Shown: positions 9,884-52,768 of the stretch, one piece after another | How positions within the stretch are numbered: position 1 is the stretch's first letter | Layout of the letters: every line of letters starts with the position of its first letter | Assembly (NCBI GenBank): GCA_030596395.1 | Contig: JAUVKF010000004.1 | Location: forward strand, 1-64,000 | Direction of reading: 5' to 3' | DNA: 64,000 nucleotides | Source of the DNA: Chlorobiota bacterium | GTDB lineage: Bacteria; Bacteroidota; Bacteroidia; Bacteroidales; F082 | Position numbers and translations under genes: made by a program | The notes under the pieces: model-generated | What the model was told of the DNA's origin: nothing | The model's database searches: none | The model's input: only the letters and a program-made list of their open reading frames with translations

Positions 9884-9892
9884 TGCACCCTC

Positions 9893-11498: not shown

Positions 11499-11542
11499 TT
11501 AATTTGAATCTATGTGTTTTGTAAAAGGATAAAATAAGCCTA

Positions 11543-14335: not shown

Positions 14336-14424
14336 GATATTATTTCTTATTGGAAAAGAAGTATGTTACCAATTAATCACCATAATACACCATTAAATCT
14401 GCATCTTTTCCCACTTAGCTTCTC

Positions 14425-14466
14425 TACAAAAAACTTCCGTAGCTACGGCTATGCAAGTTTTTTGTA
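14425..14466. other. nested hairpin between the HAO-like gene and napA
   Basis: Outer arms TACAAAAAACTT (14425-14436) and AAGTTTTTTGTA (14455-14466) are perfectly complementary, and the enclosed CCGTAGCTACGG (14437-14448) is itself a perfect palindrome. It sits in the 268-base gap between the octahaem cytochrome gene and napA, both read on the minus strand. It could attenuate or process the message between the two modules. No clear T run follows on the minus strand, so it is not called a simple terminator. Confidence 0.5.
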
Positions 14467-14603
14467 AATCGTTAAGCAGAAAAATATTTTGATTTAAAAG
14501 GTGCATTCTGATAATTATTTGATAAGAAAAACAATTTAATTAATAATGGCAAACTATGGTTCGGAACTGTCCAAACCATAGCCTGCTTTAGAACATGCAA
14601 AAC

Positions 14604-16130
14604 CTATTCAGAGTACCTTTTGCGGAATTCAGCTGCGGCAGCTTTACGTCTGGCCACCTCTTCAGGATTGGTTTTTCCGAGGAACCATTTGTGCATTTCG
14701 CTATTTAGGATATTATCCAGTAAGGCTTGCACTTTTCTGGCTTGAGCAGTTTTGCCATGCTTTTTGCCTTCAGCAATTAATTCCTCAACTTCTGGAACCA
14801 TTTCCATATAAAACCTGTCGGCCACTTCAAAATTACCATGCCATTGTGTATAATCAGGCCCCATCATAGAAGCGCCCATTCTTGCACGACGACCTTCGTG
14901 GTGCCACAGGAAGAAATAAGTCCATTCAATTTTATCGTCAAATGGAATAGGAGTAATCAATTTTTCTGCTTTCAAAGCTTTCATCAATGCAAGAGCGGGT
15001 TTGCCAAACTTCTCATTGTATAAGTGAATCTGATTGTCATATTGTGTGTAGAAATTCTTTACATAATCTTTTGTATGACATTGGAAGCAAACATTCTGCA
15101 TACCTTTTCTTCTTTGTTCCCAGGTCAGAAAATCTTCAGGCAATGGTTTTCCCTGCGCTTCATATTTAGCCAGTTCGGCAGCATCAATTTTCTCAGAAAC
15201 TTTTGGTCGAAGTGTCCAGCTAATCCTGTCGCCTACATCGTGTGTCACCGGTTGATCAGGTGTAGCACTCATGTGGCAGGTTGCGCATGTTGGAGCTGCA
15301 GAATAATCCTGCCCAACTATCCATGGCTGTGCACCAAGGTTCATGTCTTCGCGGTGTGCACGGAAATTAATCCCGTGTTTTGATTCGTTATAAATTTCCA
15401 ATTGCGGATGGTCAGGTCCCATGTGGCATTTGCCGCAATTTTCAGGTTGCCGTACCTGTGCAATAGAAAAATGGTGCCTGTTATGACAGGCTGAACACGC
15501 TCCTTTTGATCCATCCAGATTGATACGGCCCATGCCTGTATTCGGCCAGGTTTTCGGATCAAGAAGCAGAATCCCCATATCATTGTATTTGGGATCTCCG
15601 TTCTCATCAGTCTGAACCTGTACTCTCGATCCATGACACTGCCAGCATCCAGATGCGGCTGCCGGATTTGCCCCATCCATAAATGAAGCATGCCCTTCAA
15701 CTACTTCTGCCAGCACATTATCCAACGATCCCATAATCATCCCTGCATCGGCATGGTGACTGGTGGTAAACTGTTCGGCCTCTTCAGCATGACATTCAGC
15801 ACAATCATTTGGGGTAACAATTGTAGCAATAAACTGTCCTTCGTGTTCATAGCCATCAACATCCCCTTTTTTGGCCTGATGACATTCAAGACATCCAACG
15901 CCAACTTCAGCATGTTTGCTGTTTTTCCATTGTTCAACAATTACCTTTCCGACGCCTTGTTCTCCGTGACAGCTAACGCAATGTCGCGTTCCTTCATCAA
16001 CGATAGGGGAAGGTTTGTAATCAGGCATTGCATGCTGCACTTCTTTCCAAAGTGCCATCAGCAATATTACGATAAACACCACGCTCAGCACGCCGATAAT
16101 GGTTCTTTTTGTATTTAAACTTGTTGCCAT
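14604..16130 (-). CDS. octahaem cytochrome c, hydroxylamine oxidoreductase-like (HAO/IhOCC family)
   Basis: A 508-residue cytochrome with eight CXXCH motifs at about residues 51, 80, 110, 162, 212, 232, 282 and 348. One uncleaved-looking N-terminal membrane helix spans about 11-28. The haem 4 context (SGCWQCHGS) and the C-terminal LWHHEGRRARMGASMMGPDYTQWHG region are those of the HAO family. Members either oxidise hydroxylamine or, in nitrate ammonifiers, work reductively on nitrite or hydroxylamine. It follows Rieske and cytochrome b genes and precedes napA, which favours a reductive role. Whether Tyr427 is the haem-crosslinking tyrosine of oxidising enzymes needs an alignment. No NrfA gene is in the window. 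Confidence 0.88.
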   Translation of the reverse strand: MATSLNTKRTIIGVLSVVFIVILLMALWKEVQHAMPDYKPSPIVDEGTRHCVSCHGEQGVGKVIVEQWKNSKHAEVGVGCLECHQAKKGDVDGYEHEGQFIATIVTPNDCAECHAEEAEQFTTSHHADAGMIMGSLDNVLAEVVEGHASFMDGANPAAASGCWQCHGSRVQVQTDENGDPKYNDMGILLLDPKTWPNTGMGRINLDGSKGACSACHNRHHFSIAQVRQPENCGKCHMGPDHPQLEIYNESKHGINFRAHREDMNLGAQPWIVGQDYSAAPTCATCHMSATPDQPVTHDVGDRISWTLRPKVSEKIDAAELAKYEAQGKPLPEDFLTWEQRRKGMQNVCFQCHTKDYVKNFYTQYDNQIHLYNEKFGKPALALMKALKAEKLITPIPFDDKIEWTYFFLWHHEGRRARMGASMMGPDYTQWHGNFEVADRFYMEMVPEVEELIAEGKKHGKTAQARKVQALLDNILNSEMHKWFLGKTNPEEVARRKAAAAEFRKRYSE

Positions 16131-16172
16131 TTTATGTAAGTTTTAAGTTATTTATTTTTTTCATTGAATTAA

Positions 16173-17216
16173 TTAATGTCCGAAGGTTTCCCAGACGGTG
16201 AATACAGTTATTGTGAGCATTCCAAGAACGCCAATCCAGAATCCAACTTCTTTGCCAGGGAAAACTTTATCGAAAAACCGATCGATATAAGGCCAGAAGA
16301 ACAGAATCCCAATAAAGACCATCGGCCCAAGTACCCCAACCATCAGGTTTGTAATTTTTAACCAGCGGAATACGGCGAAGAAGTACCATTCGGGCTTAAT
16401 GTGCAATGGTGTTACATTCGGATTAGCCGGGTCGCCAAGCTGTACCGGGAATAACAATGAGAGTGTTAGCAGTAATATCATGATAATTGATACCATGATA
16501 AGTTCTGTAAAAACATGGTCAGGCCACAATGGGAAAGTTTTCTTTTCCACTTTTTCCTCGCCTTCAAATTCCAATTCTGTTACGCCATGCACCCTGATGA
16601 GGTAAACATGTACACCAACTGCCATAGCAAGTAAAAGTGGCAATAGTACGATATGAAAAATGTAGAACCTTGTTAGTGTGTTCTGACCAATTTCACTTCC
16701 ACCCCGCATAAAATCTGCCATCCATTCGCCAACAAAAGGTGTTGCACCGGCGATACCGGTTCCAACTTGCATTGCCCAATATGACATTTGTTCGTAAACA
16801 AGCGAATAGCCTGTAAATCCAAACATCAGCGTAAGCAAGAACAAAACAACACCAAACATCCAGTTGATGTCTCTTGGAGGTTGGTACGACCGTGTAAAAA
16901 ATACCCGCATCATGTGCAATATCAAAGATGCAATCATAATGTTGGAAGACCAACGGTGTATGCTTCTAATCAGCCAGCCATAATCGGCAGTATAAGTGAT
17001 GTATGCAATGCTGTCGTAGGCTTTGGCGGTATCGGGCACATAATAAAAAACGAGCATAATACCTGTTATCACCTGAACAGTGAACATATATAAAGGTGTA
17101 CCACCCAATGCCCACCACCATCTTTTCAGGTGATTTGGGATGGGTTCTGCGGTCAGTTCAATCAGGGCATCCTGATCAACCGGAAATGATTGTTTAAGCC
17201 AAGCTCCTAGTCCCAT
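16173..17216 (-). CDS. cytochrome b subunit of a Rieske/cytochrome b complex
   Basis: A 347-residue membrane protein joining the four-helix cytochrome b6-like part and a shortened subunit IV-like part. Haem b ligands are seen as H-X13-H in the SIHRWSS...LILH helix and H-X14-H in IFHIVLL...VGVH. The quinol-site PEWY motif is intact (KPEWYFF, near residue 264). With the adjacent Rieske protein it should form a menaquinol-oxidising complex that delivers electrons to the HAO-like cytochrome encoded next, in place of cytochrome c1. Three bases separate it from the Rieske gene. Confidence 0.93.
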   Translation of the reverse strand: MGLGAWLKQSFPVDQDALIELTAEPIPNHLKRWWWALGGTPLYMFTVQVITGIMLVFYYVPDTAKAYDSIAYITYTADYGWLIRSIHRWSSNIMIASLILHMMRVFFTRSYQPPRDINWMFGVVLFLLTLMFGFTGYSLVYEQMSYWAMQVGTGIAGATPFVGEWMADFMRGGSEIGQNTLTRFYIFHIVLLPLLLAMAVGVHVYLIRVHGVTELEFEGEEKVEKKTFPLWPDHVFTELIMVSIIMILLLTLSLLFPVQLGDPANPNVTPLHIKPEWYFFAVFRWLKITNLMVGVLGPMVFIGILFFWPYIDRFFDKVFPGKEVGFWIGVLGMLTITVFTVWETFGH

Positions 17217-17218
17217 AA

Positions 17219-17653
17219 TTAACCCTCCGCATCTTTAAAGTAAATAAATACGTTGTCGTCCTCAATCTCTGTATGGTAGGTCTGCAAGGGTGCAGGTGGC
17301 GGACCGGCAATCACATTCCCATTTTTATCAAACCTTCCGGCATGACAGGGGCAGTAAAACTCCTGGTTATCTTTTTGCCAGTAAACTGTACATCCCAAAT
17401 GTGTGCATACAGTGGACATGGCCTTGATTTCCCGTTCGCCGGTGCGTACAAGGACGAGGTCTTTTCCCCGCAAATCGGTGATCTTGCGGGAGGCGTTGAT
17501 GGGCAGTTCATCCAGGTGCATTGTGAATATCCGCCGGGTTACATCGCGCTTTTTTGGAGTAATAAAGCGAAAACCCATTGCAGTTATTCCGGCAAATGCA
17601 CCTCCTAATGGAATGAACGCCAATATGTTTTTTAATGCATCTCTTCTGTCCAT
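17219..17653 (-). CDS. Rieske iron-sulfur protein
   Basis: A 144-residue Rieske protein with an N-terminal signal/anchor starting MDRRDALKN (possible Tat signal with RR) and both cluster-binding boxes, CTHLGC and CPCHAG. It supplies the [2Fe-2S] centre on the periplasmic side of the Rieske/cytochrome b complex. It is compact, with a short loop between the boxes. It sits between the porin gene (18 bases) and cytochrome b (2 bases), so it is in one operon with them. Confidence 0.94.
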   Translation of the reverse strand: MDRRDALKNILAFIPLGGAFAGITAMGFRFITPKKRDVTRRIFTMHLDELPINASRKITDLRGKDLVLVRTGEREIKAMSTVCTHLGCTVYWQKDNQEFYCPCHAGRFDKNGNVIAGPPPAPLQTYHTEIEDDNVFIYFKDAEG

Positions 17654-30828: not shown

Positions 30829-32286
30829 ATGGCAAAAGTTGTTGTTCTGGGAGCTGGCATATCAGGCCACACTGCTTCCGCATTGCTTAAAAAAAAGCTC
30901 GGTAAAAAACATGAAGTAGTTGTTGTAACTCCCAATGCTTACTATCATTGGATACCTTCTAATATTTGGGTAGGTGTTGGACGAATGACGGTGGACCAGG
31001 TGAGGTTTAAACTTGACAAACGATATCAAAAAGTAGGTATTGTTTACAAACAGTCAAAAGCGGTTTCGTTCCATCCCGAAGGCGATAATGAAATTGACAA
31101 GGGTTTTGTTAGCATTGAATACACCGGTCAGGATAGGGTAGGAGAAGTGGAAAAAGTGGACTACGATTTCCTGGTCAATGCCACTGGGCCCATGCTTAAA
31201 TTCAGTGCTACCGAAGGATTAGGGCCCGGCAAACACACTGTTTCAGTATGTTCATACGACCATGCTGCCGAAGCCTGGGAAAAACTCCAGGAGTGTTTTG
31301 CTAAAATGGAAAAAGGTGAAAAGCAGAAATTTTTGATTGGTACAGGCCATCCGGATGCAACATGCCAGGGTGCTGCTTTTGAATATATCTTAAATGTAGC
31401 CTACGAAATCAAAAAAAGGAAACTCTCCCACCTTGCCGAAATAAAGTGGATTACCAACGAATATGAAGTGGGCGATTTTGGAATGGGAGGTGCTTATATT
31501 AAGCGCGGTGGTTACATTACCTCCACTAAAACTTTTGCCGAATCATTTCTAAAACAAAGAGACATTTCCTGGCTGAAAAGAACCGGAGTGAAAAAAGTAG
31601 AAAAGGGCAAGGTGTATTATGAAAAACTTGATGGAACCGAAGGCGAAGAAACTTTTGATTTTGCTATGCTTATTCCTGCTTTTTCAGGTCCCGGGTTTAC
31701 TGCTTTCGATAAAAAAGGGGAAGACATTACAAATAAGGTGTTTATGCCCAACGGTTTTATGAAAGTGGATGCCGATTATACCAAAAAGCCATTTGAAGAA
31801 TGGTCGGCTGACGATTGGCCTTCAACTTATCAAAACCCTGATTATGCAAACATTTTTGCTGCCGGAATTGCATTTGCACCACCACATTCCATTTCCAAAC
31901 CCATGACCAGTCCGAATGGAACAGCAATTTTCCCTGCGCCACCACGTACAGGAATGCCCTCCGGTGTAACCGGAAAAGTTGTTGCTGAGAATATTATCGA
32001 CTGGATCAAAAAAGGAAAACCATTGATGAAGCACAAAGCTTCAATGGCAAAAATGGGGGCCGCTTGTATTATTTCGGCGGGTTACGGCCAGATGAATGGC
32101 GCCGCGGCCACCATGACCGTAAATCCAATTGTACAGGATTGGGACAAATATCCCGAATATGGTCGTAGCCTGAAGGATACAATGGGAGAAGCCGGGTTGG
32201 CAGGCCACTGGCTGAAATGGTCAATGCATTATATGTTTTTACACAAAGCCAAAGGCTACCCTTTCTGGTGGTTGTTACCGGAATAA
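30829..32286 (+). CDS. sulfide:quinone oxidoreductase-type flavoprotein
   Basis: A 485-residue FAD-dependent oxidoreductase of the SQR/flavocytochrome c sulfide dehydrogenase group. The N-terminal dinucleotide fold is VVVLGAGISGHTA at residues 3-15, followed by the substrate-domain signature YYHWIPSNIWVGVG. A cysteine in DATCQGAAFEY near residue 180 is at the place of a catalytic SQR cysteine; others lie at VSVCSY and GAACIIS. The C-terminus is amphipathic (WLKWSMHYMFLH, then YPFWWLLPE), suited to membrane contact and quinone access. Sulfide oxidation is the best guess; the SQR subtype needs a tree. Confidence 0.8.
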   Translation: MAKVVVLGAGISGHTASALLKKKLGKKHEVVVVTPNAYYHWIPSNIWVGVGRMTVDQVRFKLDKRYQKVGIVYKQSKAVSFHPEGDNEIDKGFVSIEYTGQDRVGEVEKVDYDFLVNATGPMLKFSATEGLGPGKHTVSVCSYDHAAEAWEKLQECFAKMEKGEKQKFLIGTGHPDATCQGAAFEYILNVAYEIKKRKLSHLAEIKWITNEYEVGDFGMGGAYIKRGGYITSTKTFAESFLKQRDISWLKRTGVKKVEKGKVYYEKLDGTEGEETFDFAMLIPAFSGPGFTAFDKKGEDITNKVFMPNGFMKVDADYTKKPFEEWSADDWPSTYQNPDYANIFAAGIAFAPPHSISKPMTSPNGTAIFPAPPRTGMPSGVTGKVVAENIIDWIKKGKPLMKHKASMAKMGAACIISAGYGQMNGAAATMTVNPIVQDWDKYPEYGRSLKDTMGEAGLAGHWLKWSMHYMFLHKAKGYPFWWLLPE

Positions 32287-34923: not shown

Positions 34924-35517
34924 ATGGTCAAAGAAGAAATTACAGGTATAATCCTTTCGGGTGGAAAAAGCAGCAGGCTGGGTGTAGAAAAGGGTTTGGC
35001 TGATTTTAATGGTAAGCCGCTGATACAATATGCAATTGATACCTTACAAGCAGTTTGTGACAAAATCATCATCAGTGCCAACAACCAACTTGATGATTAT
35101 GCTGCTTTTGGATACGAAATAGTTGAAGATCAGGTAAAAGATATTGGTCCAATGGGTGGTTTGATGGCTTGTTTGGAGCGATCAGATACCAGGTACAATT
35201 TTGTCATCTCCTGCGATACTCCATTTGTATTGTCTGATTTGTTTCCGTTTTTACTTGAGTCGATTGAGAATTTTCAGGTAGCAGTACCTGTTCATCATGA
35301 TAATTATATTGAACCGCTGTGTGCAGTTTATGCTACAAATGTAATCTGGCAATTACAGCATTGTATTGTAAGCGGAAATTATAAACTAACTGATTTTATT
35401 GCTGAAGTGAAAACAAAAAAGCTTACTGTAAACGATCAATTGTCTTTTTACCATGATGAAATGTTTGTGAATATGAATACCCGGAAAGATATTCAAAAGA
35501 ACTCGCCTGATGGATAA
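34924..35517 (+). CDS. mobA: molybdenum cofactor guanylyltransferase
   Basis: A 197-residue MobA that attaches GMP to molybdopterin to build the bis-MGD cofactor. The nucleotide-binding loop is ILSGGKSSRLGVEKG at about residues 10-24, followed by GPMGGLMACL and the CDTPF metal-binding motif near 99-103. The product is required by NapA encoded at 11543. It overlaps the next gene by 8 bases. Confidence 0.92.
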   Translation: MVKEEITGIILSGGKSSRLGVEKGLADFNGKPLIQYAIDTLQAVCDKIIISANNQLDDYAAFGYEIVEDQVKDIGPMGGLMACLERSDTRYNFVISCDTPFVLSDLFPFLLESIENFQVAVPVHHDNYIEPLCAVYATNVIWQLQHCIVSGNYKLTDFIAEVKTKKLTVNDQLSFYHDEMFVNMNTRKDIQKNSPDG

Positions 35518-36715
35518 AGAGAATATCAAACCGGTGAAAAAACCGGATGATATTTGGCTGCGGGCTGCCGTTGTGGGTGGACTGTGGGCCTCGATGGAGA
35601 TCATTGTCGGGAGTTTTTTACACAATACCCGATTGCCTTTCGCCGGATCGATGCTGGCATTTGCCGGAACGGTTTTACTAATTGGTTTTTACCAGGTTTG
35701 GCCCATGAAGGGATTGATCATTCGTGCAGGCCTTATCACTGCAATCATGAAGTCGGTTTCTCCAAGTGCCATTATTTTAGGACCGATGATGGGAATTATG
35801 CTTGAAGCCATATTGCTTGAGCTGATGATCATGTTTTTCGGAAACAATATGTTTGGATTAATTATTGCCGGTATTTCCAGTGTTTCGAGCGCCTTGTTTT
35901 ATAAGCTGTTCAGTTTGCTGATCTTTTTTGGTTTCGACCTGATCAAAATTTATGTAAACATTGTCAATTTTGCTTTAAAACAATTTGGAATAGAAGAAGC
36001 TGAACCGGTGGAAATATTGTTAGCACTTCTTTTGGTTTATGCAGCTTTTGGTATCCTCGCTGCATTGATGGGCAGGTATATTGGAAAGAAAGCAATCAGC
36101 TATCAAAATGCCAAGTACGATTTTAATGTTCAAAACAAACATGAGCGGGACAATGATTTTTTTGAATTAAAGGAAGGCCAGAAAACCTCTTCTTTGATGC
36201 TGATTATTCACATTATTGCTGTTCCGTTGGGCCTTTATTTGCTGAATGCTTTTGAAACGCGAATAGGTTTTGCATTTATAGGAATATATATTGTTTCCAT
36301 CGGTTTTATGTACCGTCATGCATTACGAAAGCTACGAAAGCCATTCTTCTGGCTTCAATTATTGATCATTGTATTATTATCGGCCTTATTCTGGGATGTT
36401 GGTAATGAAACTGGTGAGTGGTTTAGTATTGAAGGATTATGGGTAGGGGTTGAAATGATTGTCAGGGCAATTTTCATCATTATAGCATTTTCGGCCATCA
36501 GTGTTGAACTGCGTAATGAGAAGGTCCGAAATTTTATTTTCAATGTTGGGATCGGAAAGTTTTATAAGGCAGTCGGGATGGCCTTCACTGCTTTGCCCAT
36601 GATGATCAGTTTTTTACCCGGATCGAAGGAAATCGTCAGGCATCCGATGCAATCCCTCTTAAAACCATTGATCATGGCTGATGAATGGTTAGAGGTATTG
36701 AAGAAAGAAAGTTAG
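35510..36715 (+). CDS. polytopic membrane protein of unknown function, coupled to mobA
   Basis: A 401-residue membrane protein with about ten predicted helices. The first half (LRAAVVGGLWASMEIIVGSFLH, then GLITAIMKSVSP and LGPMMGIMLEAILLE) has the look of an ECF-transporter substrate-binding (S) component, while the second half has a different set of helices. Its start overlaps mobA, so a role in molybdenum cofactor or metal supply is possible. No family was recognised with confidence. Confidence 0.6.
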   Translation: MDKENIKPVKKPDDIWLRAAVVGGLWASMEIIVGSFLHNTRLPFAGSMLAFAGTVLLIGFYQVWPMKGLIIRAGLITAIMKSVSPSAIILGPMMGIMLEAILLELMIMFFGNNMFGLIIAGISSVSSALFYKLFSLLIFFGFDLIKIYVNIVNFALKQFGIEEAEPVEILLALLLVYAAFGILAALMGRYIGKKAISYQNAKYDFNVQNKHERDNDFFELKEGQKTSSLMLIIHIIAVPLGLYLLNAFETRIGFAFIGIYIVSIGFMYRHALRKLRKPFFWLQLLIIVLLSALFWDVGNETGEWFSIEGLWVGVEMIVRAIFIIIAFSAISVELRNEKVRNFIFNVGIGKFYKAVGMAFTALPMMISFLPGSKEIVRHPMQSLLKPLIMADEWLEVLKKES

Positions 36716-37093: not shown

Positions 37094-39814
37094 TTAATAC
37101 TCTGGTAAGATACACTTCGAAGTCAAACCTTTTAGCAAAACATCATATTCCACCAAACTCCTTTTCATCACCTGCGAATCATCATCATGACAGCTCAAAC
37201 AAGCGCCAACCTTTAAAATCTTCTGTTGTTCTTCAAGACTGAATGGACGAACATCAGAACGGGTAGATACTATACCTGCCCGTTCTTGCATAAAACCAAT
37301 CCAGGAATCTTCAGGCAATCCATCGTGTACGTTGTTTTGATATTTGGGTGTAAAAATCCATTTACCTTTTCCGTTATTGGTTTTGTATACCAATTGCCCT
37401 TCTCCAAATCCAAGAGCCACCGGGTTATTGTGACATGATTTACAATCCCTGCCAATGGTTTGTGTAGTATGTGGAGCAGCAGGTGCAAATAAGCGGTGAA
37501 AGATCAGTGAATCATGAAGTGACTTGTCAGAACTGCCAACATCAATGGTAAGAACCATGCCCGGAATAACCGGAATGACTGATTTTCCATTATCACTTTC
37601 GCGAAAACCCAACGCAGGAAGATGTGCGCTGTACTCGCCAACATATTCAACCCAGCTTCCCAGCTCTTCTATGTTGGTAAGCATATTATAACCGGGTTCA
37701 TTGGGTTCGTATTTGTTGTGGCATCCAATACAACTGGGCGCCCACGAAGTATGACAGGATGAACAACTCAGGTTATCGTGGGCATTTCCACGGCTGCAAA
37801 CCTCGGCTGGTCTTTTCATGGCGAACTTTTTACCTGAGTTTTTGCTGATCATAAACGCCGTATCGTCTTTATAATAAGTATTGATCAGCGGACGATTCAT
37901 CTTTTCGGTAACAAGGTAATTTCTTCCGGTTATGCTGCTAAACCTTAACGAAGCAATGATTGCCGATTCCTGGTCGAGTTGCGTATGGTCAACTATCTTC
38001 GGATCCCCGGTTAAATGACAATCTTCGCACTGTATGTTCACCTGACTTTCCTGATGGGTATAGAAAGTGCCGTCACCCATTAATTCATACGAGTTATGGC
38101 AATCGATGCAATTTATACCCAATTGATGATGCACATCTTCCTGAATATACCTGAAAACCCTGGTTTCTTCTACTATTCTGTATTGCGAATTTTTTGGCGC
38201 TTCTTCAACGGTGAGTATGGTTTCGTGCCATCCTTCGTAATTGGTTGATATTCTTCCCGACCGGCTGTGGCAACCAAAACAATGCTCATTGGAAACCTGC
38301 AGGCTTATGGAGGGATGATATTGAAGATAAGTCGTATCGTTGATATTCCATTGCTTTTCGAAATTTGCGGTAGAGGCAAACTCATCATAATTTAAATGGC
38401 AGGACAGGCAGCCTCCACCACGACTCTTTTCGGTGATCGGCCCTGTTTCTGTTTTTGGGTTTCCCAGGTGGCAGCGAACGCAGAGATTTCGAAGATGCTC
38501 ATCGGCAGCTGTGTTGCCGAGATGGTGTATATCCGTTAGCAAATCAGGATTATCCTGTTCATTGAAAACAAAGCGGTCAACACTTATCATCCCGCTTAAG
38601 GTTGCCATTAAACCTGTATTGATCCTTTCAGTAATTTGAGGATGACAATTCACAGTTCCACAACTTCTTTCGGCGTTGGTAAGGTTGCCTGGAATGAGCA
38701 ACATATCCCTGTGCGACAGATCTTTGTCCGATTCAAAAGGATGGCCGCCATGGCATGAAAAACAACCAATTGATTCTGGGTTGTGTGATTCTGTAAATCC
38801 ATTCACTTCATCATGACAGATTACGCAACTCTCTTTGTGCCCATTAATTATCGGACTGGATGTGGCGGTTTTCGGCTGAAAATCAAGCTGAAAGTTTAAT
38901 GGTGAAACTTTTAGCTGGGACAAAGTTTTATAGTTGTATTCCTTTTCCCAGGGCCAGATCCATGTCCAGTTTGGCCCCCTGAAGAATACGCCTATAACGG
39001 TGAGGAACAAATAAGCAATGGTCAGGATAAGTAATGTGCGTTTGGTAATAAATGCTTTTTTCTTACTTACAAATGGAACCAGGAAAACAAGTACAATCAG
39101 GAAAATGATCATTAGCAGGGATAACCCGGGAGTGGTAAGCCAGTGTAGTATTTCCTGTAAGCCAAGAAAATACCAGGGGCCTTTAACGGTTGGGTTGAGG
39201 TTATCGTGGAGTGGGGCGGTAATTAAGTAACTCAGTAGTATGGCGACTGAAGTAGCCACTACAAATTCGCCCCATCGTGGCCAGAATTTCCGGTGGTGTT
39301 CCAATATGATAACAGCAATAAAAATGGTGAATGTGGCAATGTGATGGACATAGATCAATTGCAGGTCGCCTTCATTACCTAAAAATGAGTAGGAAATCAG
39401 GCCGCCGATCAACGGGACTCCTGATGTCAGGCTTTCCAGTATCCTCCATGCTTGTAAACTGTCGGCATCGCCTTTTAATAAAAAGCCGGTTAGCATAGCA
39501 AGGAAAATGATCAGAACTCCAATACTCAATCTTGCCCAGAGACCCATTTTCAGGCGGATATCTTCTTTTTTACTGAAGTGGTCGTAAATGTGAACCAGGC
39601 TTAATATCAGGAAAAGTTGCGCAGTCCAGTAATGTATGTTTCTGAATAGCGATGCAACCGGATTGGCTATCATTAAAAGACTGATGGATTCGTAAGGCCT
39701 GGCCACATCATAAGGAATGGCCAAATAAATACCCGAAACCACACAGATGATAAACAAAGCAATTGTTAGCTGGCCAAAGGTGGTTAAGTTCCATATTTTT
39801 TTTAGCCAGCTCAT
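37094..39814 (-). CDS. cytochrome b fused to a dodecahaem cytochrome c
   Basis: A 906-residue fusion. Residues 1-300 form a bc1/b6f-like cytochrome b with haem ligands in H-X13-H (NIHYWTA...LVH) and H-X14-H (HHIATFT...EHH). At the quinol site PEWY is replaced by GPWYFLGLQE. After the last helix, residues 330-890 are periplasmic and hold eleven CXXCH motifs plus one CX4CH (SCGTVNCH), twelve haem c sites. The Rieske gene overlaps it by four bases. The domain order suggests quinol oxidation with electrons passed straight into a long haem wire, replacing cytochrome c1. I do not recognise a named family for the whole protein. Confidence 0.85.
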   Translation of the reverse strand: MSWLKKIWNLTTFGQLTIALFIICVVSGIYLAIPYDVARPYESISLLMIANPVASLFRNIHYWTAQLFLILSLVHIYDHFSKKEDIRLKMGLWARLSIGVLIIFLAMLTGFLLKGDADSLQAWRILESLTSGVPLIGGLISYSFLGNEGDLQLIYVHHIATFTIFIAVIILEHHRKFWPRWGEFVVATSVAILLSYLITAPLHDNLNPTVKGPWYFLGLQEILHWLTTPGLSLLMIIFLIVLVFLVPFVSKKKAFITKRTLLILTIAYLFLTVIGVFFRGPNWTWIWPWEKEYNYKTLSQLKVSPLNFQLDFQPKTATSSPIINGHKESCVICHDEVNGFTESHNPESIGCFSCHGGHPFESDKDLSHRDMLLIPGNLTNAERSCGTVNCHPQITERINTGLMATLSGMISVDRFVFNEQDNPDLLTDIHHLGNTAADEHLRNLCVRCHLGNPKTETGPITEKSRGGGCLSCHLNYDEFASTANFEKQWNINDTTYLQYHPSISLQVSNEHCFGCHSRSGRISTNYEGWHETILTVEEAPKNSQYRIVEETRVFRYIQEDVHHQLGINCIDCHNSYELMGDGTFYTHQESQVNIQCEDCHLTGDPKIVDHTQLDQESAIIASLRFSSITGRNYLVTEKMNRPLINTYYKDDTAFMISKNSGKKFAMKRPAEVCSRGNAHDNLSCSSCHTSWAPSCIGCHNKYEPNEPGYNMLTNIEELGSWVEYVGEYSAHLPALGFRESDNGKSVIPVIPGMVLTIDVGSSDKSLHDSLIFHRLFAPAAPHTTQTIGRDCKSCHNNPVALGFGEGQLVYKTNNGKGKWIFTPKYQNNVHDGLPEDSWIGFMQERAGIVSTRSDVRPFSLEEQQKILKVGACLSCHDDDSQVMKRSLVEYDVLLKGLTSKCILPEY

Positions 39815-40257
39815 AAATCAATGGTGATTTGCTGTTTGTTTTTATCCAGTTGGAAGGCCAGTTTTTTCAATGGACGCACAGCAGGTCCGTTCAACGGATT
39901 CCCTTCGATATCAAACTTTGAACCATGGCAGGGGCAAACCAGTTCACCGTTTACGGCATGTCCGATGGTACAGCCCAGGTGTGTACATTTTGAGGAATAA
40001 ACCACAATATTGTTGTTTTTATTTGCAACAATCACATCCCTGTGAAAGGTGAACTCCTGGTTTGGATTAAAAGGTATGGTAATGCTTTGAATTTGTGACA
40101 ATAATTTCTGCGACCGCACCAATTTTTCCCATAAGAATGCAGTGCCAAGTAATATACCGGCTCCGGCCAGTTTTATAAAGTTCCTTCGGTTGTGTTTTTC
40201 TTCTGCCAATTTGGTTTTGTTAGTATGCAAACTTATTAAATTGATTGGAAAGAGCAT
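39811..40257 (-). CDS. Rieske iron-sulfur protein of the dodecahaem complex
   Basis: A Rieske protein of about 148 residues with the cluster boxes CTHLGC and CPCHGS in the C-terminal half. The N-terminal RRNFIKLAGAG resembles a Tat-type signal/anchor, preceded by an unusual basic stretch. A start at 40296 is also open and would add 13 residues, but it would leave only 21 bases to the divergent gene, so ATG 40257 is preferred. The last four bases overlap the start of the cytochrome b-dodecahaem gene, so the two subunits are translationally coupled. Confidence 0.88.
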   Translation of the reverse strand: MLFPINLISLHTNKTKLAEEKHNRRNFIKLAGAGILLGTAFLWEKLVRSQKLLSQIQSITIPFNPNQEFTFHRDVIVANKNNNIVVYSSKCTHLGCTIGHAVNGELVCPCHGSKFDIEGNPLNGPAVRPLKKLAFQLDKNKQQITIDL

Positions 40258-40317
40258 AATTCCATTTCGGGCATTTTTTCTTATCTTTATTGACACAATT
40301 AACCAAACCAGAGGATC

Positions 40318-41972: not shown

Positions 41973-42677
41973 TTACCCCAACTGGCAAATTTTCTGCAAT
42001 CCCTCAGGGTCAATAACTTCAAAATGTTTACCGGTAATTTTAATCAGGCCGTCTTCCTGGAAATGTTTAAGTGTGCGAATTACACTTTCAGTTGACATGC
42101 CCGATAGTTCGGCCAGCTCTTTTCGGCTTAACGCAAATTCAAAATCGGATTTTTTGAATATATTTCCTGCCAGGCATAAAATAATATCGGCAAGTTTACC
42201 GTATGACTGCCTGTGTGAGAGGCAAAAAAACCGGCCATTTTTTTGAATCGAAATTTCGCAAAGAATATCAATCAAAGCCAAGGCAAATCGTCCGTTTTCT
42301 AAGGCAAGTTTTTTTATTATTTCGAGCTCAATAAGTTTTACAGTGGTATTTATATAAGCCGAAGCAGTATATTGAAATACATTATTATTTTGCGGTAACG
42401 AAGTTAATCCGATCAGGCTTCCAGGTGCAGCAATTCGGAGGATTAGTGTTTTATTGTCTTCTTCGTAGTAAACTTTTGCCAAACCTTCGCTGAGCACAAG
42501 CATATGTGTGGTAAAAGTTCCCTGTTTGGCGATGATCTCCCCTTTTTTAAAAGCAACAGTAACCTGCCGGCTTTCTACCAGCTCTTTTTGTTCATCTGTA
42601 AGAAAATGAAAAGCATCTTTGTTTACATTAACTACAGTACAACTTGTCTTTATACGTTCAACAACACTTTGCTGCAT
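41973..42677 (-). CDS. Crp/Fnr family transcription regulator
   Basis: A 234-residue regulator with an N-terminal cyclic-nucleotide-binding-like beta barrel (FKKGEIIAKQG to about residue 130), a dimer helix, and a C-terminal winged helix. The recognition helix is MSTESVIRTLKHF, which keeps the Glu-x3-Arg pair used by Crp and Fnr to read TGA half-sites. Only scattered cysteines are present and no clear Fnr-type four-cysteine cluster site is seen. It is divergent from the octahaem cytochrome operon, with a perfect Fnr-type box between them, so it is the obvious candidate for controlling that operon. Confidence 0.92.
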   Translation of the reverse strand: MQQSVVERIKTSCTVVNVNKDAFHFLTDEQKELVESRQVTVAFKKGEIIAKQGTFTTHMLVLSEGLAKVYYEEDNKTLILRIAAPGSLIGLTSLPQNNNVFQYTASAYINTTVKLIELEIIKKLALENGRFALALIDILCEISIQKNGRFFCLSHRQSYGKLADIILCLAGNIFKKSDFEFALSRKELAELSGMSTESVIRTLKHFQEDGLIKITGKHFEVIDPEGLQKICQLG

Positions 42678-42866: not shown

Positions 42867-44474
42867 ATGAAAAAACTCATAAGTATTGTTTTAATACTCT
42901 GTTTTACAGGATGGGTAATGGCAGATGATGAAGGTGCAGAAAAAGATTCAAGCCGTTCATTTCCCATTACAAATTACATTTATAAAGCTGACAGGAATAC
43001 AAATCCTTCGGCTGACCATTCAAAATTTGAAATATTAAAACAACCATTTGAAAATGCACATCAGTTAACAGCCGCCTGTCTATCGTGTCATACCGAAAGG
43101 GACAAGGAAATAATGATCACCTCCCACTGGAACTGGGAGCGTGAAGATGTACTGGAAGGAAAAGGCAAGGTAAAACTGGGCAAAAAAAACATCCTCAATA
43201 ATTTTTGTATTGGAGTTAAAGGAAGTGAAGCAACATGTACCAGATGTCATATTGGATATGGCTGGAAGGACAAAAGCTTTAATTTCAAAGATCCTTTAAA
43301 TATCGACTGCGTGATTTGTCATGATAACAGCGGAACCTATAAAAAAGGTAAAGGAATGGCCGGTTACCCCGATCCTTCTGTAAACCTAAATTATGTGGCT
43401 CAAAGTGTCGGACAGCCGGGAAGAGACAATTGTGGTGTTTGTCACTTCTGGGGAGGTGGAGGAAACAATGTAAAGCATGGCGATCTGGATGTTAGTATGC
43501 TGGATGTTAAACGTGAAGTTGACGTGCATATGACTACCGAAGGTGAGGACATGAGCTGTGTTGATTGCCATGTTACTGAAAAACATCAGATGGCAGGTAA
43601 GGTGTATGCACTATCATCCGAAAATAAAGACCGTGCCACCTGTGTGCAATGCCATACCAATAAACCTCATACCGATGAAATATTAAATGATCATATGATA
43701 AGGATTGCCTGTCAAACCTGTCATATACCGGTTTATGCCAAAGAAAACGCCACTAAAATGTGGTGGGACTGGTCATCGGCTGGCCGGTTGGATGAAGATG
43801 GACATCCTATGCACGAAAACGATGCTTATGGTAATCACAACTACCTTAGTATTAAAGGAAACTTCGTATATGATGATGATGTGGTCCCAGAATATTATTG
43901 GTTTAATGGGTTGGCAAATCACCAGTTGATAAGCGATAAAATTGACACGGTCCCTCTACAGATGAATACATTATATGGATCGTACAGAGACAAGGGCGAA
44001 TTCCAGTCGAGTGTGGAACCCTCGAAAATATGGCCGGTAAAGGTGCACCGCGGAAAACAAATTTACGATACCATCCTCAAGACTTTAATCCAGCCTAAAC
44101 TTTGGGACAAGGAAAAAGGAAAAGGGGCTTATTGGGTGGACTTTGATTGGGATGAAGCCTCCAGGGTAGGCATGGAATACGTAGGCCAGCCTTACAGCGG
44201 AGCATATGGATTTATTGAAACAGAAATGTACTGGCCATTAAACCACCAGGTTTCTCCGGCCAGCGAATCTTTAAAATGTGTTGATTGCCACACAAGGAAC
44301 AATGGAAGGCTCGCTAGTTTAACTGATTTTTATTTACCGGGCCGAGACCGCAACGCATTTTTGGATGGGTTTGGCATTATCGTTATCGTCGGCGCTATTG
44401 TTGGAGTTATAATCCATTCCATACTCAGGAGATACCTGAGAAGAAAGTGCTTTTTTCAAAAAGAAACAAATTAA
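42867..44474 (+). CDS. octahaem cytochrome c, tetrathionate reductase family (OTR-like)
   Basis: A 535-residue periplasmic multihaem cytochrome with a signal peptide (about 1-19), eight CXXCH motifs (near residues 71, 124, 148, 189, 231, 259, 282 and 474) and a C-terminal membrane helix (about 500-525) with a basic tail. The DCVICHDNSGTYKKG segment matches the active-site haem region of the Shewanella octahaem tetrathionate reductase, where a lysine serves as haem ligand. OTR reduces tetrathionate, nitrite and hydroxylamine in vitro. It is first in an operon with a cytochrome b-PAS protein and a rhodanese, which favours a sulfur-compound substrate. Confidence 0.88.
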   Translation: MKKLISIVLILCFTGWVMADDEGAEKDSSRSFPITNYIYKADRNTNPSADHSKFEILKQPFENAHQLTAACLSCHTERDKEIMITSHWNWEREDVLEGKGKVKLGKKNILNNFCIGVKGSEATCTRCHIGYGWKDKSFNFKDPLNIDCVICHDNSGTYKKGKGMAGYPDPSVNLNYVAQSVGQPGRDNCGVCHFWGGGGNNVKHGDLDVSMLDVKREVDVHMTTEGEDMSCVDCHVTEKHQMAGKVYALSSENKDRATCVQCHTNKPHTDEILNDHMIRIACQTCHIPVYAKENATKMWWDWSSAGRLDEDGHPMHENDAYGNHNYLSIKGNFVYDDDVVPEYYWFNGLANHQLISDKIDTVPLQMNTLYGSYRDKGEFQSSVEPSKIWPVKVHRGKQIYDTILKTLIQPKLWDKEKGKGAYWVDFDWDEASRVGMEYVGQPYSGAYGFIETEMYWPLNHQVSPASESLKCVDCHTRNNGRLASLTDFYLPGRDRNAFLDGFGIIVIVGAIVGVIIHSILRRYLRRKCFFQKETN

Positions 44475-44489
44475 CAGGAGGCAGTAATC

Positions 44490-45653
44490 ATGGAAAAAAT
44501 TTATATCTACAAAATATTTGAACGATTCTGGCATTGGTCACAAGCATTGATCATTGGCTTTTTAGGAGTTACCGGTTTCGAAATACATGGGTCCTTTTCG
44601 CTCTTTGGTTTTGAAAATGCCGTTCGCTGGCATAGTATAGCAGCCTGGGTCTTTCTTATTTTAATTGTTTTTGCCATTTTCTGGCATTTTACTTCAGGCG
44701 AATGGAGGCAATACATACCTACAACCAAATTGTTGAAAGAACAATTTATGTATTACATCGGTGGAATTTTTAACAATGCACCTCACCCTACCAACAAAAC
44801 AGTTTACAATAAGTTTAACCCTTTGCAAAGGATAACCTACCTTGGTCTTAAAATACTGGTTATTCCGGTTATTGTTACCAGCGGATTCCTTTACCTTTAT
44901 TTTCAGTATCCAAAATTTGGCATTGAATTCCAGAGCCTTGAACCGATCGCCCTTATTCACACTTTTGGAGCTTACATTCTTCTTGCTTTTGTTATTGCCC
45001 ATGTTTATTTAACCACAGTAACAGGAGTAAAATCATTTTCGAGTATTAAAGCCATGATTACCGGATGGGAAGAGATGGAAGATGAAGAAATTAAAATTGT
45101 TGTTGAAGAGGAGATGGAAGTAGCTTTACAGGAAATCAAAGGAAAACTAAAAGCCGGTGACGAAAAAAGTGATCTGCTGGATGATGCTTTAGGCGCAGTA
45201 GAAGAAAAACTGGGCGTAAAACGTGAAACCTTTTTCAGGGATGCTATTGCGGAAAGTTCTGCAGGTTATTTCTGTATTGGTAAGGATGGTTATTATAAGG
45301 AAGTAAATGATGCCTGGCTGAATTTATATAAATACAATTCGAAGAATGAAATTATAGATCAACATTATCGCTTAAGCCGAACCGAGGAAGATTTTAAAGA
45401 ACTGGAAGCTAGTGTTATGAAAGTATTGCAGGGTGAAACCATTAACCACGGTGAGGTAAAAAGAATTTGTAAAGATGGTTCAGAAGGCTATCATACACTA
45501 ACATTATCACCTGTTTATATTGATGATGAAATCAGTTGTTTTGAAGGATTTATCATTGATACTACTGCAAAACACCTTGCTGAACATGAAATGTTGAAAA
45601 AGAAAATCAGGTTGGCAGAACGTCAGAAAAAAAACAAAGAAGAGAATAATTAA
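44490..45653 (+). CDS. cytochrome b561-type membrane subunit fused to a PAS domain
   Basis: A 387-residue fusion. Residues 1-185 are a four- to five-helix cytochrome b of the Ni/Fe-hydrogenase/thiosulfate-reductase type, with histidines in RFWHWSQ, RWHSIAAW and the later LIHTFGA and VIAHVYL helices as haem ligands. Residues 190-240 are an acidic coiled-coil-like linker, and 248-375 form a PAS domain (AGYFCIGKDGYYKEVND). No kinase, GGDEF or other output domain follows. It should pass electrons from quinol to the octahaem cytochrome encoded 15 bases upstream; the PAS domain may sense redox state or regulate this step. I know of no described system with this fusion. Confidence 0.85.
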   Translation: MEKIYIYKIFERFWHWSQALIIGFLGVTGFEIHGSFSLFGFENAVRWHSIAAWVFLILIVFAIFWHFTSGEWRQYIPTTKLLKEQFMYYIGGIFNNAPHPTNKTVYNKFNPLQRITYLGLKILVIPVIVTSGFLYLYFQYPKFGIEFQSLEPIALIHTFGAYILLAFVIAHVYLTTVTGVKSFSSIKAMITGWEEMEDEEIKIVVEEEMEVALQEIKGKLKAGDEKSDLLDDALGAVEEKLGVKRETFFRDAIAESSAGYFCIGKDGYYKEVNDAWLNLYKYNSKNEIIDQHYRLSRTEEDFKELEASVMKVLQGETINHGEVKRICKDGSEGYHTLTLSPVYIDDEISCFEGFIIDTTAKHLAEHEMLKKKIRLAERQKKNKEENN

Positions 45654-45672
45654 AAAATTAAAAGATAGTACT

Positions 45673-46188
45673 ATGAAAACGATGAAATCATTTTTTGGAT
45701 TAATACTCATTTTGCTTGTATCGCTTTCGGCCTGTAACAATGCAGGACCAACACAAAGCCTTGATGAAATGGTAGCAGCAGCTAAAAAAACAGTTGATGC
45801 TGTTATTGTTGAACAATTAATGCAAAAGCTGGATAATGGCGATATGATTATGTTAATTGATGTTAGGGAACCGAATGAATTTAATGCAGGCTATATTCCC
45901 GGAGCTGTTAATATCCCTCGCGGGGTACTCGAGTTTAAAATTGGGAACGAAGATTTTTGGGATGCTGCTATGTTATATATGCCTGAAATGACTGAAGAGA
46001 TTATTGTGTATTGTAAAAAAGGTAAAAGAGGTATCCTTTCCGGACAAACCCTGAAGAAACTGGGATATACTAATGTAACCTATATTGAAGGTGGTTGGAA
46101 AAAATGGGAGTTGACGTATCCGGATCTGTTTGAAAAGAACCTTGATGCCATGGGCCATGATGATGGGGGCGAGGTAGGCGGTTGCTAA
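45673..46188 (+). CDS. rhodanese-domain lipoprotein
   Basis: A 171-residue protein with a lipoprotein signal (lipobox-like SLSAC near residue 21) and a single rhodanese domain (LIDVREPNEFNAGYIPGAVNIPRG). The active-site cysteine is in IVYCKKGKRG near residue 118. It would transfer sulfane sulfur in the periplasm. It is the third gene of the octahaem cytochrome operon, which strengthens the sulfur-compound interpretation of that operon. Confidence 0.9.
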   Translation: MKTMKSFFGLILILLVSLSACNNAGPTQSLDEMVAAAKKTVDAVIVEQLMQKLDNGDMIMLIDVREPNEFNAGYIPGAVNIPRGVLEFKIGNEDFWDAAMLYMPEMTEEIIVYCKKGKRGILSGQTLKKLGYTNVTYIEGGWKKWELTYPDLFEKNLDAMGHDDGGEVGGC

Positions 46189-49944: not shown

Positions 49945-51174
49945 ATGAAAAAATTATTAATACTTGGTGCCGGAACAGCTGGTACTATGATGGCAAATAA
50001 AATGCGTAAACATCTAGCACGCGATGCATGGGAGATTACCATTGTCGACCAGTTCAAAACCCATTACTACCAACCCGGCTTTTTATTTATACCGTTCGGG
50101 ATGTATAACCGCAATGACGTTATCAAGCCAAAAAGCGATTTCTTCCCGGTAGGTGTAAATGTGATCTATTCGAAAATTGACAAAATACAGGCAAAGGAAA
50201 GCAATGTGATTCTCGAAGATGGTGTTGTGTTGAAATACGATTACCTGATTGTTGCAACAGGCTGTAAAACTGCACCGGAGGAAGTTGACGGTTTGAATGG
50301 TGAATTGTGGTATAAAGACATCTTTGATTTTTATACCATCGAGGGCGCAGTTGCACTTGCCAATTATTTTAAAACCTGGAAAGGCGGTGAGCTAATCATC
50401 AACATCTCCGAATTGCCTTACAAATGTCCGGTCGCACCGCTTGAGTTCGCCTTTTTTGCAGATGCCTTTTTTACTGAGAGAGGTATGCGCGATAAAGTAA
50501 ACATTACCTATGTTACACCCATGTCAGGCGCATTTACCAAGCCCAGGGCTACAAAAATGCTTGGTGAATTGCTTGAGCAAAAAAACATCAATCTGGTTCC
50601 TGATTTCGCCATCATGGAAGTTAATAATGAGGAAAAGAAAATTATGGATTATGGTGGAACCGAAGTAAAATTCGATTGCCTGGTATCTGTTCCGCCTAAC
50701 CTTGGTGATGAGGTAATGGAAAGAAGCGGATTGGGTGATGATATGAATTATGTGCCTACTGATAAGCATACTCTGCAATCCACGGCTCACGAAAATATTT
50801 TCGTTATCGGTGATGCTTCCAATATCCCAACCTCAAAAGCGGGATCAGTTGCACACTTTGCAGCCGAGATACTGGAAGAAAATCTGATGTGCGCCATCGA
50901 AGGCAGGCCATTCACCGGCAGCTTCGACGGACATGCCAATTGCTATATCGAAACCGGATACGGAAAAGGTACTTTAATTGATTTTAATTACGATACCGAG
51001 CCATTACCTGGCTCATTCCCTTTTCCCGGCTTAGGCCCCTTCGGGTTGCTAAAAGTCTCCCGGATGAACCATTATGGAAAAGTATTGTTCAGGTGGATAT
51101 ACTGGCACATCCTGCTTAAAGGAAAGGAAATGCCTATCGATTCGGAAATGCAGATGGCCGGTAAAAAATTATAG
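49945..51174 (+). CDS. SQR-like FAD/NAD(P)-binding oxidoreductase
   Basis: A 409-residue flavoprotein of the sulfide:quinone oxidoreductase group. The FAD fold is LLILGAGTAGTMMANKM at residues 4-20; HYYQPGFLFIPFG near 41-53 is the SQR substrate-region signature. Cysteines at VATGCKT, PYKCPVAPLE and HANCYIETG are at candidate catalytic positions. The C-terminus holds a membrane-associating amphipathic stretch. It heads a four-gene set with DUF1641, DsrC/TusE-like and DsrE-like genes, a known partnership in sulfur-oxidising prokaryotes. Confidence 0.87.
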   Translation: MKKLLILGAGTAGTMMANKMRKHLARDAWEITIVDQFKTHYYQPGFLFIPFGMYNRNDVIKPKSDFFPVGVNVIYSKIDKIQAKESNVILEDGVVLKYDYLIVATGCKTAPEEVDGLNGELWYKDIFDFYTIEGAVALANYFKTWKGGELIINISELPYKCPVAPLEFAFFADAFFTERGMRDKVNITYVTPMSGAFTKPRATKMLGELLEQKNINLVPDFAIMEVNNEEKKIMDYGGTEVKFDCLVSVPPNLGDEVMERSGLGDDMNYVPTDKHTLQSTAHENIFVIGDASNIPTSKAGSVAHFAAEILEENLMCAIEGRPFTGSFDGHANCYIETGYGKGTLIDFNYDTEPLPGSFPFPGLGPFGLLKVSRMNHYGKVLFRWIYWHILLKGKEMPIDSEMQMAGKKL

Positions 51175-51211
51175 GCCGGGAACTGATGAATAAAATTAAT
51201 TTTTGACAATT

Positions 51212-51901
51212 ATGGCAAAAGATAATATTCAGGAGCAAATAAACGACATTAACCGAAAACTTGATATCGTGCTCGAAGAGGTATTGGCCCAGAAAGAAAC
51301 ACGGCAATCCATTGAAGATTTAACAACCGATTTAACCATTGTTGGTAAAGACGTGTTTAAATCTACTGTTTCAGAATTGGAAAATGCCGGAGTAGAACTT
51401 GATGGCGAAGCAGTTAAGCAACTTATGCTCAAACTGATAAGAAATGTTGGAACCATCAACGAAATGTTTGAAATGCTGGAAAGTGCCAACGACCTGATCA
51501 AGGATGTTACACCGATAATGCATCAGATGGGCCTCGATGGCATTCACATGATGAATGAATTTGAGCAAAAGGGATACTTCGATTTCATGCGCGAAGCCAT
51601 GAACATCATGGACAATGTATTAGAACATTTCACTGTTGAAGATGTCAGGCTGTTGGCCGATAATGCTGTTACCATTCTGGAAACTGTGAAAAACCTGACT
51701 CAACCTGATATGCTTAAGGCAATTAATAGTGGTTTGATTGTGTACAAGAGCATTGAAATTGAAGACGTGCAAGAATATTCCATGTGGAGGGCAATAAAGG
51801 CAATGAATTCCAAAGAGATGAAAAAAGGTATCGGATTCATGATCACGTTCTTACAAAACATCGCAAAAGAAACGGAAAAAGCAAAACAGAAATCTAAATA
51901 A
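51212..51901 (+). CDS. DUF1641 protein
   Basis: A 229-residue helical protein with the DUF1641 core (MREAMNIMDNVLEHFTVEDVRLLADNA region, about residues 125-150). DUF1641 proteins are encoded next to SQR-like flavoproteins and are thought to help them, but the biochemical role is unknown. ATG 51212 is preferred over the TTG at 51203. It lies 37 bases behind the SQR-like gene. Confidence 0.85.
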   Translation: MAKDNIQEQINDINRKLDIVLEEVLAQKETRQSIEDLTTDLTIVGKDVFKSTVSELENAGVELDGEAVKQLMLKLIRNVGTINEMFEMLESANDLIKDVTPIMHQMGLDGIHMMNEFEQKGYFDFMREAMNIMDNVLEHFTVEDVRLLADNAVTILETVKNLTQPDMLKAINSGLIVYKSIEIEDVQEYSMWRAIKAMNSKEMKKGIGFMITFLQNIAKETEKAKQKSK

Positions 51902-51933
51902 TTAATCATTGATTTAATCATAAAATAAATATT

Positions 51934-52245
51934 ATGGCAACAAAAAATTATGGAGGAGTTTCAGTAGACGTAAACGATGAAGGTTACATGACTGACTCCT
52001 CACAATGGACAAAAAAAGTAGCATCTGGAATCGCGACAGATGAAGGTGTTGTTTTGACAGATAAACACTTTGAGGTGATTGATTTCATCCGTACCAAAGT
52101 AGCTGATGGCGCAACATTAACCATCCGTGGAATCAACAAATCGGGTGTAGTGAATGCAAAAGAATTTTACCAGATGTTCCCTGGTGCTCCTTTAAAAAAA
52201 TCAACAAAAATTGCCGGTGTTCCTAAACCTGAATCATGCATTTAA
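51934..52245 (+). CDS. DsrC/TusE family sulfur carrier protein
   Basis: A 103-residue DsrC/TusE-like protein. The C-terminal arm ends PKPESCI with the conserved penultimate cysteine that carries sulfur. The second cysteine found about 11 residues upstream in true DsrC is absent, so this is the single-cysteine form that relays sulfur rather than making an intramolecular trisulfide with DsrAB. No dsrAB genes are in the window. It sits between DUF1641 and DsrE-like genes. Confidence 0.9.
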   Translation: MATKNYGGVSVDVNDEGYMTDSSQWTKKVASGIATDEGVVLTDKHFEVIDFIRTKVADGATLTIRGINKSGVVNAKEFYQMFPGAPLKKSTKIAGVPKPESCI

Positions 52246-52264
52246 TTTTTAAAACCTAAATATT

Positions 52265-52768
52265 ATGGAAAATGACGAAAAATATAAATTGAAAAAAGTC
52301 CTTTTAATCTGTTCCAAAGGAACAATTGAGGATGTTTACGCTGCCCTGGTAATGGGCAATGGCGCAGTTATGGAAGGAATCGAAACAAAACTCTTTTTTA
52401 CTTTTTTTGGGTTGGATGCCATCACAAAAAAAAGGATGAATCATCTGCATACTTCCACCGTGGGAAATCCCGCCATGCGTATGCCGGGGAACCTTCCTTT
52501 CCCAACGTGGCTTGGCGGATTACCGGGCGTTGAAGCTGGTGTGTCAGCAATGATGCGAAAAGAAATGGAAAAACTGGATATTCCAAACGTTGATGAATTT
52601 CTTGAATTAATTGTTGCCGGTGGTGGTGAACTTTATGCCTGCAAACTGGCATCCGATATGTTTGGTATTACAAAAGAAGACCTGCACGATGATGTAAAAG
52701 GTATTATTACCGTTGGTGACCTTTATGAAATGTGTGACGGACCAGGGACACAAATAATTTTTACGTAA
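52265..52768 (+). CDS. DsrE-like sulfur transfer protein
   Basis: A 167-residue DsrE/DsrF-like protein of the larger DsrE family (KKVLLICSKGTIEDVYAALVMGNGA at the start, then MEGIETKLFFTFFGLDA). A cysteine in LLICSKG and one in GELYACKLASDMFG, near residue 126, are candidates for sulfur binding. It would exchange persulfide with the DsrC/TusE-like protein encoded 19 bases upstream. It ends the four-gene sulfur set. Confidence 0.87.
   Translation: MENDEKYKLKKVLLICSKGTIEDVYAALVMGNGAVMEGIETKLFFTFFGLDAITKKRMNHLHTSTVGNPAMRMPGNLPFPTWLGGLPGVEAGVSAMMRKEMEKLDIPNVDEFLELIVAGGGELYACKLASDMFGITKEDLHDDVKGIITVGDLYEMCDGPGTQIIFT

Follow-up and report, generated by a model that had tools for sequence, protein, structure and literature searches.

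What kind of electron-transfer complex is encoded where a Rieske gene is followed by a single gene that runs from a membrane cytochrome b directly into a twelve-haem cytochrome? Such a gene lies at 37094..39814 on the reverse strand of the 64,000-nucleotide stretch of DNA analysed here (the window), and its 906-residue product is encoded by an open reading frame without internal stop. Residues 1-322 (38852..39814, reverse strand) correspond to a seven-helix cytochrome b of the b6f/bc1 type (PF00033, E 1.7e-9), and residues 326-906 (37097..38851, reverse strand) to a predicted periplasmic ExtM-like domain with eleven CXXCH sites and one CX4CH site (NF040943, E 2.6e-76). The initial annotation had proposed this one-piece architecture, with cytochrome b joined to the haem part, and the numbers of both kinds of site, all of which stand on the motif positions; its length of 560 residues for the haem part is slightly short of the ~580 measured here. 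One chain combines a membrane cytochrome b and a twelve-haem electron wire in a Bacteroidota bacterium.

The gene for the Rieske [2Fe-2S] protein (39811..40296, reverse strand; PF00355, E 3.2e-12) lies immediately upstream and shares four bases (ATGA) with the fused gene, the overlap originally described. Its product carries a Tat-like RRNFIK motif and the boxes CTHLGC and CPCHGSKFD, and both cluster boxes (CTHLGC, CPCHGS) are also found in most relatives. Candidate starts are GTG at 40296, ATG at 40257 (chosen in the initial annotation) and a later TTG, with homologues of ~127-136 aa, and in most loci the Rieske and cytochrome b genes adjoin or overlap. The closest solved Rieske structure is 9rk3, apparently from work on anammox bacteria (PMC12954380). 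As the annotation implied, the Rieske partner is present without a cytochrome c1: no c1 or f gene adjoins the pair, and the twelve-haem domain stands in its place. The complex is a variant of the Rieske/cytochrome b (bc) complex, not a canonical one, in which cytochrome c1/f is replaced by the fused twelve-haem domain.

Could the fusion be an artefact of assembly or a frameshift? A scan of GTDB contigs yielded 16 fused relatives from independent assemblies, 14 of them full-length and the other 2 partial, with cultured Draconibacterium and Maribellus among the carriers, and whole-genome searches enlarged the set to 43 full-length fused and 9 unfused proteins, all from Bacteroidota, which were aligned. 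The same domain order is therefore found in 43 full-length proteins from separate assemblies, some of them single-contig genomes, and a second fused copy (69% identity) is present in the genome of the window itself, so that a sequencing join error is excluded. In one relative the gene falls into two reading frames and contains an in-frame TGA (L100, G692 C2:22559-25218), either a pseudogene or a sequencing error, and the same genome is also without a PsrA-like match; against the 43 intact proteins, an artefactual origin of the fusion has a negligible chance of being correct. A search of plasmids for homologues returned just weak Sphingobium matches. We found no paper describing the full-length fusion, in a literature search of incomplete coverage with most subscription journals outside it, and within that scope no earlier characterisation of the architecture came to light. 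The genome also contains a third, distant ExtM-like multihaem gene (G000 contig C47:11870-13579; L006, L051) of ~24% identity and 161 bits to NF040943, with neither cytochrome b nor Rieske gene adjoining.

The cytochrome b half has the features of a Rieske partner. Its b-haem ligands, recognised earlier as H-X13-H and H-X14-H, are H61-X13-H75 and H158-X14-H173, and all four histidines are kept in 43/43 fused proteins. The family profile matches solved cytochrome b6 (E 1.5e-14). In a low-confidence predicted model of this part alone (pLDDT 48), helices A-G plus the cd and ef helices can be traced, and its 25 best Foldseek matches are all bc1 cytochrome b chains over nearly the whole length, fold matches that are consistent but weak; AlphaFold2 gave pLDDT 38 for the whole fused protein. 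CbcL and other Geobacter fused proteins also join a b-type cytochrome to a multihaem c domain, and are not known to have a Rieske partner. The annotation's comparison with the CbcL type is not supported as kinship, the fused b part being of the Rieske-partner type by its PF00033 match, the b6 profile match and the bc1 Foldseek matches; the b part of CbcL belongs to another family, a distinction made by description and not by sequence. Because seven helices that begin inside finish outside in the topology of b6/subunit IV, the haem domain would be periplasmic. Thr12 aligns with Cys35 of b6, a position occupied by T, S, P or N in 43/43 fused proteins, and for this reason a covalent haem ci of the b6f type is not expected.

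At the Qo site, residues 212-215 read GPWY where PEWY is usual, a change that had been noticed in the window and extends through the family. GPW is kept in 43/43 fused proteins and the tyrosine in 41/43, so by the alignment GPWY is a family trait and no local oddity. Motifs of the PEWY type are known to vary systematically (PMC9162462). With GPWY in place of PEWY, the glutamate proposed as proton acceptor is missing, which counts against the best reading offered below.

The haem half is related to a component of the Geobacter Ext system. Residues 324-895 align with positions 16-595 of the 599 in the ExtM model NF040943, and alignment from end to end was also found for other family members. Since the score of 257 bits lies below the curated cut-off of 800, we call the domain ExtM-like and not ExtM; the kinship is drawn from the NCBIfam model and from papers, the sequences compared here being all from Bacteroidota, with Geobacter ExtM itself not among them. 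Geobacter has ExtM (12 haems) in its ext cluster together with the Rieske protein ExtO, the cytochrome b ExtP and ExtQ, each encoded as a protein of its own (PMC5877670). The genes were proposed to specify a bc complex whose cytochromes had no assigned role, and the cluster is kept in all six Geobacter genomes compared (PMC2825233). The two systems share an ExtM-type twelve-haem cytochrome, a Rieske protein and a cytochrome b of the split type, and rhodanese and porin genes belong to the Geobacter cluster (PMC5877670, PMC2825233). They differ in that separate genes there correspond to one chain here, and in that ExtK, ExtL, ExtN and ExtS are not seen beside the fused gene; a further multihaem gene of this kind is absent from the neighbourhoods of most fused loci. 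The idea of a specifically ExtP-like cytochrome b half found no support, as this half scores 54 bits with the ExtP model against 44 with generic b6; the Nap-linked cytochrome b of the window scores 219 with ExtP. The fused cytochrome b is hardly nearer to ExtP than to generic b6, so the fused and Geobacter complexes need not have a common origin. Separately, the NCBIfam model NF040968 (FeS_ExtO, 416 positions) matches the same multihaem stretches as ExtN (NF040967) with nearly equal scores and looks mislabelled, ExtO being described as a 14.1 kDa Rieske protein.

Other complexes resemble this one in part. In the anammox complexes Kuste4569-4574, Kustd1480-1485 and Kuste3096-3097, a multihaem cytochrome replaces cytochrome c1/f, and in Kuste3096-3097 a dihaem domain is fused to cytochrome b (PMC12954380); unlike the present complex, they have separate hexa- or octahaem chains and NAD(P) oxidoreductase subunits, and no twelve-haem fusion. 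In the Caldithrix-type Nap complex, Rieske protein and cytochrome b are likewise proposed donors to a multihaem c protein (PMC5317091), but the system is one of nitrate/nitrite with an octahaem HAO-like protein and no fusion. The window holds a second, separate Rieske/cytochrome b complex, with PEWY, inside a nitrate reductase cluster (9296-17653, reverse strand) that encodes NapB, NapH-like, NapG-like and NapA proteins, an octahaem HAO/hydrazine-dehydrogenase-like cytochrome, cytochrome b and Rieske protein, and its layout resembles the Caldithrix abyssi cluster (PMC5317091).

Does the haem domain merely conduct electrons, or does it carry an active site? The CXXCH motifs begin at residues 330, 351, 445, 469, 512, 569, 596, 684, 695, 791 and 872, where composition-matched shuffles of the domain gave a mean of 0.06 and a maximum of 2. 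Twelve haem sites are present in 52/52 relatives (43 full-length fused and 9 unfused). The CX4CH site, CGTVNCH at residues 385-391 (38642..38662, reverse strand), is invariant among the 43 fused proteins, and two unfused relatives have CXXCH in its place, strong evidence for a genuine haem-binding site. The twelve proximal histidines are kept in 52/52 proteins and just eight further histidines are invariant (344, 368, 440, 500, 562, 587, 679 and 782). One relative has 21 histidines in its whole haem domain, enough for bis-His ligation of no more than nine of its 12 haems; in the 52-protein alignment, Met403, Met579, Met753, Cys673, Cys901, Lys454 and Lys658 are nearly invariant. We infer that some haems of the chain are His/Met or open and the others bis-His, and the limit of nine together with the three methionines makes a c1-like His/Met haem possible.

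These same features bear on a rival reading that makes the haem domain the terminal enzyme: it would act as a sulfur- or chalcogen-oxyanion reductase to which its own quinol oxidase is joined. At least three haems lack a conserved histidine as distal ligand, Cys673 and Cys901 lie outside the haem motifs, a short stretch resembles NrfA, ExtM persists without Rieske and cytochrome b, and loss of ExtI impairs selenite and tellurite reduction in Geobacter (PMC5877670). Yet no catalytic-haem signature was identified, the methionines could occupy the open haems, the two cysteines may form a disulfide, and the selenite phenotype is that of ExtI and not of ExtM, so that we regard a terminal enzyme as unlikely. 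Its explicit form, a single-chain menaquinol:sulfur- or chalcogen-oxyanion reductase with an active-site haem in the ExtM domain, strikes us as rather improbable. If it were true, a periplasmic reduction that is usually regarded as non-electrogenic would conserve energy by way of electron bifurcation at the Qo site, and the same would apply to the Geobacter Ext complex.

The neighbourhood of the fused gene points to a function in sulfur metabolism. Taking the best label for each neighbouring open reading frame, a PsrA-like gene adjoins or lies within 33 of the 43 fused loci, usually together with PsrB, NrfD, two YeeE/YedE-like proteins and rhodaneses, and at least one of ten sulfur-linked neighbours is present in 39/43 (of the four loci without one, two are short). 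Among the genomes of the order sample, a PsrA-like gene occurs in 20/20 with the fusion vs 69/275 without it (p = 7e-12); the class sample around G062 gives 13/15 for ExtM-bearing genomes vs 27/230 (p = 8e-10). The test counts genomes as independent, and as the 20 fused genomes represent 12 families these p values overstate independence. In the genome of the window, the Psr catalytic subunit is encoded on contig C37 beside ExtI-like and ExtH-like genes and aligns end to end with Thermus thermophilus PsrA (E 1.5e-190). Since fused genomes nearly always carry a polysulfide-reductase-like enzyme, the fused complex probably serves sulfur respiration. Psr is found without ExtM in many genomes and ExtM without Psr in hardly any, and for that reason the ExtM-like cytochrome appears to be accessory to sulfur metabolism.

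The nine unfused relatives retain the haem domain, in most cases preceded by a helix at the N terminus, have no adjoining cytochrome b or Rieske gene, and lie mostly beside a Psr operon. Their existence counts against the best reading, as it means that ExtM has another partner too, and suggests that this second partner is probably the Psr complex. On the haem-domain tree the fused/unfused label needs four changes and unfused rows nest among fused ones, which suggests repeated loss of the quinol module (cytochrome b and Rieske), although on this quick tree without bootstrap the starred branches force just two changes.

Around the fused gene, the window encodes further redox proteins. A Crp/Fnr-type regulator (41973..42677, reverse strand) lies upstream on the same strand and is kept as a neighbour in L005, L008, L009, L018 and L019. 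Divergent from it is a conserved forward-strand block (42867-46188) of an octahaem tetrathionate-reductase-family (OTR) cytochrome (42867..44474; TIGR04315, 574 bits against a cut-off of 375; also in L005, L008, L009 and L019), a b561-type cytochrome with a PAS domain (44490..45653; PF01292, E 8e-26) and a rhodanese-domain protein in the same cluster (45673..46188). The b561-type protein is the likely quinol partner of the octahaem cytochrome, and a PAS sensor domain is unusual on a respiratory cytochrome b. OTR was rejected as a general partner enzyme: it neighbours the fused gene in the window and at four other loci, yet as a control it occurs in 4/20 fused genomes vs 59/275 others, with no association. 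On the other side of the fused gene lie a forward-strand gene (34924..35517) whose product we take to be MobA-like, with homologues in 22/43 fused loci, and beside it one for a conserved multi-spanning membrane protein of ~400-580 aa (35510-36715, forward strand), also found in L005 and L007, with similar proteins in L086 and L090.

Two different SQR-like flavoproteins are encoded in the window (30829-32286 and 49945-51174, forward strand), the second accompanied by DUF1641, DsrC/TusE and DsrE genes (49945..52768, forward strand), a block that occurs near the fused gene in 8-9/43 loci of other genomes. Together with the rhodaneses throughout, these genes speak for reverse flow, in which oxidation of sulfide or polysulfide by SQR or a reversed Psr feeds menaquinone, or ExtM directly. 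Electrons passing backwards through the Rieske protein would run uphill, however, and menaquinol formed by SQR and Psr still needs an oxidising complex, so that this reading, which we find distinctly unlikely, bears on where the quinol comes from and not on the direction in which the complex works.

Extracellular acceptors were among the possibilities named in the initial annotation. That the complex is the point where electrons leave the inner membrane for an extracellular electron-transfer chain, by way of an ExtI-like porin, seems to us very unlikely. An ExtI-like porin and ExtH-like rhodanese occur near the fused gene or Psr operon in L005, L008, L018, L084, L091, L093 and our own-genome locus L105, and in Geobacter the ext genes show a response to Fe(III) (PMC5877670). 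The porin is near just 6/43 fused loci and the rhodanese near 8/43, both below the curated cut-off, other multihaem genes do not adjoin most loci, and ExtI is regarded as an oxyanion channel and not a cytochrome conduit (PMC5877670), so that extracellular delivery of electrons is at best weakly suggested.

The reading we prefer, and judge reasonably probable, is that of a menaquinol-oxidising Rieske/cytochrome b complex whose c1/f is replaced by a fused ExtM-type twelve-haem chain and which serves PsrABC-like sulfur metabolism. To the directly established architecture, conservation, haem sites, b-haem ligands and PsrABC co-occurrence it adds, by inference, an electron direction, a Q-cycle bifurcation, an entry haem and a periplasmic acceptor. 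The haem chain would share the periplasmic side with the Rieske domain. Of the two electrons of a quinol oxidised at the Qo site, one would go to the Rieske cluster and the other to the b haems; the Rieske cluster would reduce an entry haem of the chain, and from the chain electrons would reach periplasmic partners in a sulfur-compound pathway that has the PsrABC-like molybdoenzyme at its centre. A point against this reading is that polysulfide is a low-potential acceptor, which makes electron transfer to PsrA itself by way of the Rieske protein thermodynamically difficult; a high-potential acceptor such as tetrathionate would suit such a route better than polysulfide.

By the Rosetta-stone argument, the fusion is a natural pointer that the twelve-haem ExtM directly partners a Rieske/cytochrome b pair. 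As a single expressible polypeptide with a small Rieske subunit, it offers material for work on electron delivery from a bc complex into a long chain of haems, and cultured carriers are available in Draconibacterium and Maribellus. Strong and specific co-occurrence ties such complexes of Rieske protein, cytochrome b and haem chain to PsrABC-type sulfur metabolism in Bacteroidota.
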